From Antedon mediterranea (taxonomy: Eukaryota; Echinodermata; Crinoidea; Comatulida; Antedonidae): 64,000 nt of DNA. A program made the translations under genes and the position numbers. Every line of letters starts with the position of its first letter. Position 1 is the first letter of the stretch. This document shows, piece after piece, positions 22,360 through 43,400 of the stretch. The notes beneath the pieces were generated by a model that saw nothing but the letters and a program-made list of their open reading frames with translations, ran no database searches and had not been told where the DNA came from. The DNA lies in the NCBI RefSeq assembly GCF_964355755.1, contig NC_092672.1, positions 28,206,501 through 28,270,500 on the forward strand. Reading direction: 5' to 3'.

Positions 22360-22610
22360 TTCTAGAAAACTCAGATCTAGAAAACTCAGATATCTGACTT
22401 TTCTAGATCTAGAAAACTCGAGTTTTCTAGTTCCAGAATAGAACTAGAAAACCCAAATGAAATGGATCGTTCCATATTAATCAGAGGTAGCTTGTTTGAA
22501 ATACTACAGTATTATACGTTTTCTTACTAATAATAATAATTATTGTAACTTGTAGTTAGCGGCCTACGACTTGAATCATCATCATTTTCTAGATCTAGAA
22601 AACTCAGATA
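22360..22610. repeat. Palindromic TCTAGAAAACTC cluster beside LINE 3' end
   Basis: Copies of CTAGAAAACTCAGAT occur in both orientations at 22360-22435, once more at 22588-22607, and again in inverted form at 25418-25437 on the other side of the LINE. The LINE therefore appears to sit inside a pre-existing cluster of this word. Confidence 0.65.
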
Positions 22611-25440
22611 TATTTTATTTTTATTTTTATTTTAACAATATTTTATGAGGGTGGTCCATCCAGCATCAGCTGATCATTAGGGACCCTCAAACAAACAGAA
22701 AATACAAAATAAACTATAAAAACACAAAATTAACAAAGATATAAAAAATAAATATATATATATATATAAATAAAAATATACAGAATGCCAACAAAGAAAG
22801 AAGGAAAAAAAGAAAAAAAATCAGAGAGAGAGAAACAGGTGTTTTTTCAAAAGAGATTTAAAGGAGGAGAAATTGTATGAGTTACGAATGCTTAAAGGTA
22901 GAGAATTAAAGAAAGAAAGAAAGTTTAAAGATTTCAAGGTAAGGACGAGGGATAAGAAGATCTCCTTTAGTAATTTGCCTAGTGTTCATACGGCCGTTGG
23001 AAGTTACTTTAGTTAAAAGCTGACAGATAGTAAGAGGAGCAGTGTGATGTAGAGCTTTGAAAGATAGACATGCAAGCTGAAAGAGGTATCGTTCATGGAA
23101 GGGGAGAGTCTTAGCACTGGAAAAGTGATGAGGAGAGAGATGTGTAGTGGGAGATAGATCGAGTAGTAGACGGATAGCTTTATTCTGGATTTTTTTAAGT
23201 TTAGTGGTAGAAGAAGGTTTAGAACCCCAGACAGAGCAGCAGTAGTCAAGTCTAGAAAGGAAAAGTGAATTGTACAGAAGATGAAGAGAAGATTTGTTTG
23301 TAAATTTAGAGGTACGTTTGAGTAAGTAGATAATAGAATTGAGTTTTTTACAGAGGGAAGATATGTGAGATTTCCAGGTTAGAGTATTATCAATTATGAT
23401 TCCAAGGTGTTTATGAGAAGTAACAGATTGAATTGGAGAATCATTAAGAGTAAGGGTGAATGAGCATAGATTTAGTTTTTGAGATATTGAGTGTTAGTCT
23501 GTTAGATTTTAGCCAGGTAGAGAGATGAATTAGAGCATTATTAAGATTCTGTTCAATAAGTTTAGAAGAGGAGTTAGAATAGTGGATGATGGTATCGTCA
23601 GCATGTCAACATGTAGATTAGAGTTATGAGAGATTAGAGAAGATGAAGGTCGTTAATGTAAATGGAAAAGAGAAGAAGACCAAGAGTGGAGCCTTGAGGA
23701 ACTCCAATAGAAAGAAAACCAGAGGAAGAAAGAGTTTTTTCAAAAAGAACTTGTTGAGAGCGATTAGAAAGATAAGATCGGAGCCAAGAGATAGTTGAAG
23801 GAGAAAATCCATAGTAGGGTAATTTAGCAAGAAGAATATTATGGTCAATAGTGTCGAAAGCTTTTTTGAGATCGATAAAGATAGTGCCAGTAAGTTTCTT
23901 ATTATTGATATTGTGAAGCCAGTTATCATATGTGTTGGTAAGAGCAGTAAGGGTAGAATGTCGGGGACGAAATCCAGATTGAGAAGTAGATATTAAGTTA
24001 TTAGAGTCAAGGTAAGAATAGATTTGTTGGGAAATAGATTTTTCAATAATTTCGGAGCAAAGAGAAAGGATAGAGATAGGCCGGTAGTTGTTAAGGTCTT
24101 TTCTTTTGCCTGATTTAAAGATAGGAAAAACTTTAGATGTTTTCCAGGCAGAGGGAAGGCAATTAGAATTGATAGAAAGATTAAAGATAAAGGTAAGATG
24201 AGGAGCAATAATAGCAGAAGCATCTTTAAGAAATTTACCATCAATTAAATCAGGTCCGGTAGAAGTATTGGGATTGAAGGATGTTAATTCAGTTTGGACA
24301 AAGTCTTCATCGATGCAGCTCAGAGAAAAGAAAGAGTTGCAAATAGACAGATAAGAAGACGGGTCAGGACAATTAGAGGCGTCAATGAGAGAAGAAAGCT
24401 TAACAGCATTGTTAGTGAAGAAAGAGTTGAAAGAGTCGGCAATAATTAAATGATCAGAGATGTCTGAGCCATTAATTGAAAAAGACGGAGGGAAGGTATT
24501 AGATTTAGAAGGAAGAAGATCTTTCAGGCCATTCCAGATTGTTTTAGTATTACCTTTGTTGTTATTTAAGAAAGACTTATAGTACATTGCTCTAGCATCT
24601 CGACATAGTTTAGTTACAGAATTTCTAATTTTACGGTAGTTTTTAAAGTCAATATTGTTTTTGGTTTTATAAGCTTTGACTTTTAAAGCATCTCTTTGGT
24701 GAAACATATCAAAAATGTCATGTCTATTATTGAGCCATTTCGGCAATGTCCTTTTAAAACGTCCAGTGACATAAGGGGCAAACTTGTCGCAAATATGTGA
24801 GAATTTGGAGGTCCAAAACGTGAGTGCAGCATCGACATTCGTTAAGTTGTAGAGATCTTGCCAATTCTGGTGTTGAAGCTCATTTAAAAAATTGATTTCG
24901 TTGAAGTTCTTGAAAGATCTAAACGTTTTAGTGTAGTGATTCATCTTTGGTGTTTTTGATGATAAGCAGGTGTATACATATTCATGATCACTAAAGCCAC
25001 AAGGAAAGACAGAAGTGTGAAGATGTAAATACTCACAGTTTGTTAAAATAAGATCAATTGTTGATTCAGAAGTTTCAGTGATCCTTGTAGGAGTTAAAAT
25101 TAACTGTTTAAGACCAAAAATATTCATAATATCATTAAGATGGTTATGGTTAGTTGATCGAGTTTGAGTGTTAATGTTAAAGTCACCAATTGCAATTAAA
25201 TTACTTGATTTGTCTGACCAGAGATGAAGACAGGACTCTAGGTCCGTAAAAAACTCAACTGGAGCACTAGGTGGTCTATAGATAGTGGTTAAGAGAATGG
25301 AACTGCCAGATGGAGGTTTGATTAATATAGCAACTGACTCGATGCTAGCATTTTCAGGTTGACTGATCTCTTCAAAAACAATTGAATCTAGAAGATACAT
25401 TGCCACACCACCACTGAGTTTTCTAGATATGAGTTTTCCA
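22606..25440 (-). mobile_element. 5'-truncated L2/CR1-type LINE
   Basis: The element runs on the minus strand from mid-endonuclease to a 3' end of TTTTA-type repeats (AAAATA repeats on the minus strand). Domains in order are the C-terminal half of an APE endonuclease (GDFNIN, then a GFSDHEYV box) and a reverse transcriptase (NYRPIS, FIDLKKAFDT, IGVPQGSTLG). A C-terminal tail near 22850-23000 resembles SIRNSYNFSSFKSLLKKHLF. The 3' UTR carries GAGGGTCCCTAATGATCAGC and ends with GGACCACCCTCAT, able to form a stem. The word ATCTAGAAAA flanks both ends and could be a target-site duplication. It is 5'-truncated, as usual for LINE copies. Confidence 0.9.
23634..25435 (-). pseudogene. LINE ORF2 fragment: endonuclease C-terminus and reverse transcriptase, disrupted
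   Basis: About 600 codons are open from the endonuclease fragment through reverse transcriptase motif B. The frame stops at 23634 shortly after YINDL, before the catalytic DD box. The downstream frame continues after indels and reads HADDTIIHYSN, where the usual tyrosine of YADD is histidine. With the lost N-terminal endonuclease, the broken frame and this change, the copy is almost certainly inactive. The open frame extends to 25496 on the upstream side, but bases beyond about 25440 look like flanking DNA. Confidence 0.85.
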
Positions 25441-40442: not shown

Positions 40443-43400
40443 TCAAATACTATCATAATGAGCCCGTCCCTTCTTGTCGACCAATCGCCATTGCAGTAGT
40501 ACAGCATCAACTCCTCCTGATGAAATGACTACTTGGTCGTTGAATAGAAATTTGGTTCCTGTCACATGAGAGCTATGGTGTTTAGATTCGTGAGATTCAG
40601 CCTAGAAAGAAAAAAATACAGTGCTTTGTGTAAACGTAAACGTTTGTTAAAAATCAGTTGCGACGAGGTGGCCTAAGATTTTCAGCTGCGGTTAATTTGT
40701 CTCTCCACACAATTTTTTGGTGAAGGAGTACAAAATTCCTGTCGAGTAATCTCATATACAGTACTGTTGCGAGGTGTGGTACCCTTATCGCATATGTCAA
40801 ATTCAAATGATTGAGCAAACCCAGAGACCCAAACCCGGTTGATCTTACATCAACGTCGTCAGGAACAATCATATGAGGGGAGACTAGACACTCTTGATAT
40901 CCCATCCACAATCGCTATTAGAGATTGTTATACTGTTCTATTTGTTTGCAATGTTTTACTTTATCATCAAAGATCTATTATTTATAATTTACTCATAGTT
41001 AATAATCGTCATGATACTCTCACTTTCAAGCATCTTCGCTCCAGTAATGATATGTCAAAATTTTGCATCCCGACCAGATTCACTAGAACTTGGAATTCCA
41101 TACCCAATGAGATTCGCGATATTTTTGTTAATGGTTCATTTATTAATTTTAAATTATCTCTAAAGCTATATTTTAAATGTCAGAGAGAAACTTTTTAACT
41201 TTTGAAATGAAATGATATGTCTATGTTATTTTAGTATATAATCTTGTTATTTGTAATTTTTGTGTTGGAGAGACACACCTTACCGGTGACAGCGTTTTGT
41301 TTAATGCTTTTGTCTCTCCTCGGCTTCGTGTCTTGTATTTCATATATATATATATATATTTCTATGTTTTTTTGTGGTTTTTTTTGTTGTAATTATTATT
41401 TTATGTTTATTGCCGAAATGAATAAAATAAAAAAATAAAATAAATGTGTCGCACTGCCCGCGTTGCCTTGTTATGAAAGCTCGCTTTTTGGACGCAACTC
41501 AGCGACGTAGGCTAAGTTGTCCAATCACAAGCGACAGTTCGGATGATTCATCGCTTCGGGATTGGTTAAAGTAATTGTTTGCGGCGCGCTTACGCTCTTC
41601 TACGTTGCGTCCAAGCAAAACCAAGCTTAGTGGTTCCGTTTTAAAAACCACCGCGCGAAGTTGCATGACTGAGTTACCTGCCTAAAATTAATAGGCACAC
41701 AGATACTGTGCTGATGTAATATGTGTACACATCCGTTAATATAAACGGCGTCCCATAATATACACAACTTTTCATTTAAATTTTATATTTACCTTAAATG
41801 ATGTACAAGGATATCGGAATAGTGAGAGGAATCCATAATTATCGCCTGCTACTAATATCTGATGATTGTTTGAACGTCCGACAGTATTGATGTCCGTTCC
41901 TCGATCTCTTGATGGCCATATACCTGAAATATGACGTCATAAATCTACGTTAAACCAAGGTAGGCCATACTCGTTCATGCGAGCTTGTTGAGGAGCGAGC
42001 TTGTTTTTAGGCATATTCTAGGGCTAATTTGGAGTGGAGTTGTGGCTTGGTGGTTATGATGCTTGGCTACCACTCCAAGGGTCCTGGGTTCAAGTCCCGT
42101 CACATGTCAGGATTTTTTCTAAGGACAAAATTACAACTCCACTCCCAAAGACTTGTAATAAGACTTTGTTTATGTAGAGCATCTTGTGTATATGTTTGTC
42201 TTGTGAACCTCTGAGGGTCCCTAATGATCAGCAATAGCTGGATGGATCACCCTCATTAAATGTGGTTTAAAAAAAAATCTCTTGAATGGAGACCGCGATC
42301 TTCTTAGACCTATTTTGCTGAAAATGTATTAACTGTAGGCCTACACCAACACCACATTGTGTTATATGTATCATGTTTATTTATCATAAAAACTCACAAA
42401 CTTACCCATTACGTTATATCCCAGAATGCAGTTGTTTGTTTCCCATTTAATTCCACGGATCTTTTGTTTGTTTCCCTCTTGTTTCATTTCTTGAAGATCC
42501 CCTAAAAGCACATTAATATTAAAACCCCTATTATCGAAATCATGGATCTACAGTAAACATATAGGTTATGGACGATGTTGTTAAAAACGACTGGACCAAA
42601 TCCAAAGCCTGGCGGAGAGTCTAACGTTCAAATCATTACAGGGGCAATGAAGCGTATAATAAACATTGTCTAATTTACATTATGCTGCTACTTACAGTAC
42701 AACAAGTCGTAGTTTCCAGAAACACTTCGTAGAAACATGTTGTCAACCGACCAATCAATGTGAGTCAAGAAATTACCATGACCCTAAAAAAAGATTTATA
42801 TAAACCATGTCTTACTTATGCGATGATTTATTTATTAAATTCTTATTTTATGTTTCCAGCTTTCTATTTTTGTAATGTAAAGAACAAATATTATGTATCA
42901 TGCTTACGTCACTTGTAAACGTACGTACCTGCAATGCAATGACCTTCCGGTAAACCTGTCCGTCGTCCATGACAGCAAATATGTAAATCTTATGATCATG
43001 TGACCCCATAACAAGCATCGAGCCGTCTATAGTTTTGAAAATAGTAAAGAATTCCAATTGTGTTATTATTTTTGTTAATGAAAATCCGATGTACGTATTT
43101 TTTTTAGTTTGCAAACCCTAGGCTCCGCAAAATGTCTTGTTTTGGTATAAAGATAATACCCAGTGGTCGTTTGCTATGCGGTAGTTGTATTGAAACATAT
43201 TACCTGGTGAAAATCGGATAGCATCTAATTTATCGGATCCAATTTGCACAGAAGTTACATGCATCCCGTTAGCAGCGTGTAAAATGACAAATCTTCCAAC
43301 AGTCGTTCCAACAGCAATAATGGCGCCAGTTGGATCAAAGCAGCACGATAAACATGGCTTCTCAACATTCACCTTCCAAACCAGCTTATTATTTTCTGCA

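Follow-up and report, generated by a model that had tools for sequence, protein, structure and literature searches.

In the eel, the protein of the LINE UnaL2 can use the tail of UnaSINE1, which is reported to require the stem-loop together with one unpaired C and a U-U mismatch (PMC5135761). In the carp, the HAmo SINE is a young tRNA SINE whose tail hairpin is described as nearly identical to that of HAmoL2 (PMC2653535). The zebrafish elements ZfL2-1 and ZfL2-2 are stringent L2 LINEs; the region between endonuclease and reverse transcriptase (RT) is reported to bind the 3′ stem-loop, with general binding of the stem and specific binding of the loop (PMC4176376). In addition, SINE/LINE pairs are widespread, and CR1 and RTE pairs predominate (PMC3747384). 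Few cases have shown in detail how LINE proteins choose their RNA, or how SINEs go on moving once the donor LINE has decayed.

Here we analysed a 64-kb stretch of DNA (the window), which is part of contig C3 of a 354-Mb genome in 18 contigs. It holds a tRNA-type SINE and a broken LINE, here called LINE-A, whose coordinates are given in Table 1. Judged from sequence, the SINE very probably borrows the copying enzyme of larger elements that end in a similar hairpin. Tail sharing itself is already known, and this set of one SINE and several LINEs appears to be a fresh case of it. Furthermore, tail sharing of the eel UnaSINE/UnaL2 kind, as proposed in a preliminary description of the window, is well supported, because only the 3′ hairpin and tail are common to the two elements and the common block is present in both family consensuses.

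Table 1. Features of the SINE and of the LINE-A copy in the window (positions count from the first base of the window)
Feature	Position	Strand	Basis
tRNA-type SINE, whole copy	42031..42277	+	best 40 of 2626 first-look candidates scored, 96-100% identical
13-bp inverted repeat closing the tRNA-like head, 5′ arm	42031..42043	+	13/13 against reverse complement of 42133-42145
13-bp inverted repeat, 3′ arm	42133..42145	+	partner of the 42031-42043 arm
A-box-like Pol III promoter element TGGCTTGGTGG	42043..42053	+	sequence; one mismatch to consensus
B-box-like Pol III promoter element GGTTCAAGTCC	42087..42097	+	sequence against consensus
Internal T6 run, possible early Pol III terminator	42113..42118	+	in SINE consensus
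LINE-derived 3′ hairpin of SINE, tetraloop AATA	42213..42254	+	homology, fold, covariance model
SINE tail: ATTAAATGTGGTTT, then A run	42255..42277	+	sequence, copy alignment
LINE-A copy, 5′-truncated, frame-broken	22606..25412	-	sequence and relatives; 5′ limit inferred
Endonuclease part, Pfam Exo_endo_phos_2	24972..25295	-	E 1.5e-9, residues 49-156
Reverse transcriptase part, Pfam RVT_1	23667..24101	-	E 2.5e-19, residues 447-591
LINE-A 3′ hairpin, tetraloop TGAT	22647..22688	-	homology, fold, covariance model
LINE-A tail: ATAAAATATTGTT, then AAAAT-like repeats	22606..22646	-	sequence, copy alignment

The head of the SINE is closed by a perfect inverted repeat; longer imperfect arms were also seen, and both arms are paired in the minimum-energy fold. 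Three bases of the 3′ arm are missing in 11 of 28 SINE copies, and four are missing in two. The A-box-like and B-box-like elements are presumed to be such by comparison with the Pol III consensus, and ARAGORN called no tRNA in the 64-kb window. The T6 run lies 15 bases past the B box and could halt Pol III early. It was kept in 22 of 30 chromosome-1 SINE copies (those in which the anchor matched), and our guess at its origin is the terminator of an old tRNA gene that was carried along. The hairpin consensus of the SINE is GAGGGTCCCTAATGATCAGC, a tetraloop and GCTGGATGGATCACCCTC. One copy (L113) has the tetraloop TGTT and a tail of GAAT repeats in place of the A run. Four other copies (L107, L108, L109 and L110, at 10.2-10.8 Mb of contig C1) have identical flanks; thus, they probably originated by local DNA duplication and not by retroposition.

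As to the LINE, the preliminary description had placed it on the minus strand at 22606-25440. The strand is right, but the first ~28 bases of this interval look like flank because relatives align from residue 8, and the body probably starts near 25412. LINE-A carries an APE-type endonuclease domain and an RT domain, and from this domain content and general features of the family we take it to be a putative L2/CR1 element. The best 40 of 1183 candidates scored in a search with its 3′ end were 80-100% identical. In addition, a short repeat of the TCTAGAAAACTC type flanks the LINE-A insertion on both sides (22365-22389, 22585-22605 and 25413-25440).

The last 66 bases of the SINE match the 3′ end of LINE-A without gaps at 56 positions (E 1e-17 pairwise, and E 3e-16 when the whole window was searched), and all remaining matches between the two elements had E values of 1 or worse. 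This agrees with the match of about 60 bases in the preliminary description, and the three strings quoted there were found in both elements. To place the block within the families, 28 SINEs and 20 LINE-A 3′ ends were aligned; these copies were not filtered for perfect stems, and the SINEs were among the closest to the window copy. In each consensus the block lies at the extreme 3′ end. Allowing three substitutions, it was found in all 28 SINEs and in 18 of the 20 LINE-A 3′ ends, the two exceptions (L020 and L022) having deletions inside it. Stems and internal loops were exact in 22 of the 28 SINEs. The other six (L004, L032, L037, L039, L044 and L048) have changes there, and that of L039 is in the outer stem. 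In the 80 nt upstream of the hairpin, the SINE consensus gave no alignment with the consensus of LINE-A or of LINE-B, a second family described below. Thus, the homology of the SINE to a LINE of its own genome is confined to the 3′ hairpin and tail. Because the block is present in both consensuses, at the 3′ end of both families, neither of the two outcomes that the preliminary description had set against its own proposal was found, namely consensus 3′ ends that differ and an unrelated inserted repeat.

A pattern of 35 places in the hairpin, with at most two mismatches, occurred 1009 times in the genome, and the reversed control pattern occurred 0 times. Within the 64-kb window, a covariance model found 42213-42254 on the plus strand and 22647-22688 on the minus strand (E about 1e-15), both copies being among its training sequences; it also matched the mirror strand of the SINE hairpin with E 1.3. 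Behind the hairpin, the SINE tails mostly open with an A run, many of them after GGTT, and the LINE tails are AAATAAAAT-like; both are A-rich.

The window LINE is not alone in having these stems. A search for hairpins without the preceding C, which drops typical SINEs, turned up 134 places, about 100 of which were listed; the reversed control gave none. This set holds LINE-A, the family LINE-B (tetraloop TTCG and variants; UUCG in RNA) and further SINEs. A narrower pattern (GGATC plus a LINE-type tail) gave nine places: seven with TTAT, one with TGAT (L020) and one AATT SINE (L060). We call the seven places with the TTAT tetraloop (UUAU in RNA) subfamily A2. A2 agrees with the SINE throughout the stems and internal loops (38 of 38 positions), and LINE-A and LINE-B each do so at 37 of 38; LINE-A reads GGACC where the SINE consensus has GGATC. 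However, none of the three agrees with the SINE at any of the four tetraloop positions, the apical loops being AATA in the SINE, TGAT in LINE-A, TTAT in A2 and TTCG in LINE-B. Upstream, LINE-A and LINE-B are alike at 56 of 67 aligned positions, a score that was matched by 18 of 300 shuffles.

As a sample of unselected elements, we took every perfect-stem hairpin of contig C1 (49 in total), the perfect stems being a product of the filter. There were 34 SINEs, 7 LINE-A, 7 LINE-B and one TTAT copy without an upstream match. The tetraloops of the SINEs were AATA (20), AATT (11), AACA (1), ATTA (1) and TGTT (1), those of LINE-A were TGAT (6) and TCAT (1), and those of LINE-B were TTCG (5), TTCA (1) and TGCA (1), so that no tetraloop was common to SINE and LINE among these 49 hairpins. 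The perfect-stem sample and the unfiltered alignment of 28 SINEs and 20 LINE-A gave the same consensus.

The window LINE-A had been considered as the sole partner of the SINE, and this was dropped once LINE-B and A2 surfaced with the same stems. Since A2 resembles the SINE more than the window LINE does and LINE-B fits too, we regard the window LINE as closely related to the donor and not as a uniquely named partner. The hairpin core is common to several families and its tip differs; therefore no single partner can be named, and the statement in the preliminary description that the match names a specific one is not supported. The tetraloop of the SINE was found in no LINE read, and no intact copy of A, A2 or B was seen among the best candidates scored.

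When the hairpins of the SINE, LINE-A, A2 and LINE-B were folded separately, all showed one plan: an outer stem followed by a single unpaired C and a short middle stem, then a six-base internal loop on the 5′ side, an apical stem that carries the tetraloop and, on the 3′ side, a bulge of 3 nt. A U lies opposite a U beside the middle stem in the predicted fold, and the GAGGGT/ACCCTC stem that had been pointed out before is present in the minimum-energy folds of both the SINE and the window LINE. The stability is modest, with shuffle z-scores of -1.65 (SINE), -1.79 (A), -1.79 (A2) and -0.88 (B). For the other types folded, which are introduced below, the scores were better in C (-3.33), D (-2.43) and F (-2.16), and slight or negligible in J (-0.57) and E (-0.06). 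Free minimum-energy folding recovers the complete plan in 8 of 13 rows (SINE, A, A2, B, C, E, I and J) and part of its pairs in F and G (13/14 each), K (10/14), H (9/14) and D (4/13). All Rfam matches in the stretches searched stayed under the gathering threshold of their family. For the SINE, A, A2, B and C we regard the plan as firm; it is likely for type D and plausible for types E to K.

Types C to K come from the 3′ parts of 20 related LINE loci, of which 18 have a hairpin that can be written in the plan; they fall into nine types. The two loci outside the 18 are L084 and L071 (44% identity), and in L071 the homology to LINE-C stops before the 3′ end. The search patterns for C to K were drawn up after inspection of the 3′ UTRs, and those for C and E matched nothing, so exact strings were used instead. 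The outer stems of the types were GAGGG/CCCUC, UAGGG/CCCUA, CAGGG/CCCUG, GAGGA/UCCUC, CUGAA/UUCAG, CUGGA/UCCAG and UAGGA/UCCUA, with one A-G mismatch in type G. Because MAFFT failed on the 3′ half of distant hairpins, the SINE and 12 LINE (sub)families or types were aligned by hand to fit the plan. In this 13-row alignment, which favours the plan by its making and follows the elements' own folds only in part (G, H, I and K were unfolded at that time, and the fold of D differs), 167 of 168 pair cells are standard. For the SINE and types C to K alone (ten rows), 134 of 135 cells hold a standard pair within a type, versus 758 of 1028 if the 5′ side of one row is matched with the 3′ side of another. 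On this sequence comparison, compensatory changes across the LINE families support a specific stem-loop. The preliminary description had named such a stem-loop as the recognition element: the stem-loop with its paired changes stands, and its role in recognition is putative.

Two further tests depend less on manual fitting. In the first, a second covariance model was trained on the SINE, A, A2, B and C, with the structure supplied by the analyst, and was run on 45 kb of 18 other loci. It gave 11 matches, the six best of which are the 3′ ends of type D at six of six loci (E about 0.04). The weaker ones were type E (E 1.2), L071 (E 2.7, unrelated), type F (E 3.6) and two more unrelated places, the three unrelated matches being taken as chance. 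Types G, H, I, J and K had no match at E up to 10. Furthermore, the mirror strand of the hairpin scored 11.5 bits against 11.1 bits for type E; thus, E and F stand on their place and motif and not on the model. A covariation set made with MAFFT had 14 sequences (A to E and the SINE, 13 distinct), with the type E row visibly out of register. In it, 87.0% of the cells pair versus 83.4% in shuffles, and the covariation score was 0.105 versus 0.044; neither value was reached in 500 shuffles, a result to be read with the tool's own warning that kinship of the sequences alone can beat shuffles without any structure. Three pairs changed on both sides, which 56 of 500 shuffles reached, and there were three further pair types against a shuffle mean of 3.3, reached by 400 of 500.

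With regard to age, the median divergence from the majority consensus was 2.7% for 31 SINEs, 4.4% for 25 LINE-A/A2 pieces and 5.1% for 8 LINE-B pieces. These values give a rough order only, because the samples were drawn differently and the LINE-A set leans to the best matches. The near-identical copies L108-L110 were left out (34 SINEs becoming 31), as were 5 of 30 LINE-A/A2 loci and 3 of 11 LINE-B loci that were too short in the alignment. Beyond the window copy, a protein search with LINE-A found only fragments at three loci (75-89% identity), and the best 40 of 1907 candidates of a LINE-B nucleotide search were 3′ parts only, the query itself aside. Among the best candidates scored (LINE-A by protein, A2 and B by nucleotide), we saw no A, A2 or B copy whose frame is intact; intact copies may exist beyond these. 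The closest family seen with long open frames is LINE-C, which is 42% identical to LINE-A and has frames of 1130 and 1142 aa. In the LINE-C copies at L135 (1-2523, minus strand) and L136 (1005-3599, plus strand), the reading frame holds a 2A-like ribosome-skipping motif, CGDIELNPGP (in L135 near residues 122-131, counted from its first ATG). Such motifs are reported in non-LTR retrotransposons of various species (PMC4981915).

The end of the 5′ flank was also compared with the 3′ flank. Repeats of at least 5 nt were found in 36 of 58 SINEs versus 33.6% of shuffled pairings (p about 9e-6), and in 33 of 55 (p 5e-5) without the three duplicate copies L108-L110.

Taken together, we hold with good confidence that the SINE is a non-autonomous element which took its 3′ hairpin and tail from the LINE-A/A2/B group, and whose RNA is reverse transcribed through a hairpin-binding LINE protein. 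In this reading, the SINE combines a Pol III head of tRNA-like type and an unrelated middle part with a 3′ hairpin and an A-rich tail from this CR1/L2-like group, the donor probably being an A2-like LINE or an unsampled close relative. We infer that a protein of the same group, one that binds the hairpin, reverse transcribes the SINE RNA. The constant parts would be three short helices, the unpaired C and the asymmetric internal loop, constant in sequence in the closest elements and in structure as predicted, and the apical tetraloop varies in the sample. As to the protein that moves the SINE at present, the A, A2 and B copies seen are not intact, and LINE-C is the nearest family seen with long open frames.

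What the protein recognises is a separate matter. One proposal, which we offer tentatively and with less than even expectation, is that the recognised part is the stems, the unpaired C and the asymmetric internal loop, the apical loop being free to drift. One protein would then read several LINE tails as well as the SINE, and the SINE would be a generalist parasite that outlives its donor family. If recognition were loop-specific here, no LINE read would fit the SINE. Free variation of the apical loop seems the simpler reading of the sequences, because loops differ within the SINE and within LINE-B.

The opposite proposal is that the SINE is really paired with a LINE that escaped detection and carries the tetraloop AATA or AATT, and that recognition is loop-specific, as is reported for ZfL2-1 and ZfL2-2 (PMC4176376). 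It would account for the tetraloops that SINE and LINE never share in the chromosome-1 sample. However, when a LINE with the SINE's tetraloop was sought, all 15 AATT places among those listed from the 134 turned out to be SINEs. So did all 8 AAT-loop places that were found with the upstream letters of LINE-A or LINE-B and at most two mismatches, the two sets overlapping. The same variation of tetraloops within the SINE and within LINE-B also speaks against it, and we consider such a partner unlikely.

Less probable still, and in our view quite improbable, is that a relaxed LINE which recognises poly(A) moves the SINE and that the hairpin is a mere relic of its origin. The A run after GGTT in many SINE copies, unlike the LINE tails, and the SINE tetraloop matched in no LINE read would suit it. 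Nevertheless, the exact stems and internal loops in 22 of 28 SINEs, albeit copies among the closest to the window one, speak against it. SINEs moved by L1 have long flanking repeats, whereas 32 of the 36 flanking repeats found here are of 5-6 nt. Finally, a common block that arose by chance or as an unrelated repeat inserted in both elements is ruled out for practical purposes by its terminal 3′ position in each consensus, the E value of 1e-17 and the empty reversed control.

The preferred reading thus remains a SINE that uses the hairpin-binding protein of its donor's LINE group. In this one genome, a young SINE occurs together with about a dozen LINE (sub)families or 3′-end types of similar hairpin plan, and the closest of these elements, with a constant core and a variable tip, form a natural set for separating the recognition of stem, internal loop and apical loop. 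Six hairpin strings had no match in the literature text searched, and the family may stand catalogued in Repbase or SINEBase.

Compared with the known systems, the SINE resembles UnaSINE1 and UnaSINE2 with UnaL2 of the eel, being a tRNA-type SINE that has a short 3′ stem-loop and tail in common with a LINE of its own genome. As is described for UnaL2 (PMC5135761), the predicted fold here contains a single unpaired C as well as a U that faces another U. Unlike UnaL2, which has the loop GGAUA and the tail (TGTAA)n, the elements here have AATA, TGAT, TTAT or TTCG apical loops and A-rich tails. In HAmo SINE and HAmoL2, one tail nucleotide is reported to differ and the partner is named, whereas here 4 of 4 tetraloop positions differ and several LINEs fit. 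In ZfL2, the loop is reported to confer the specificity; in contrast, A, A2, B and the SINE have their stems and internal loop in common but not the apical loop. Among invertebrates, parallels by description are SURF1, SINE2-x_SP and Nve-Nin-DC-SINE of sea urchin and sea anemone, tRNA SINEs with CR1/L2-like tails (PMC3747384).
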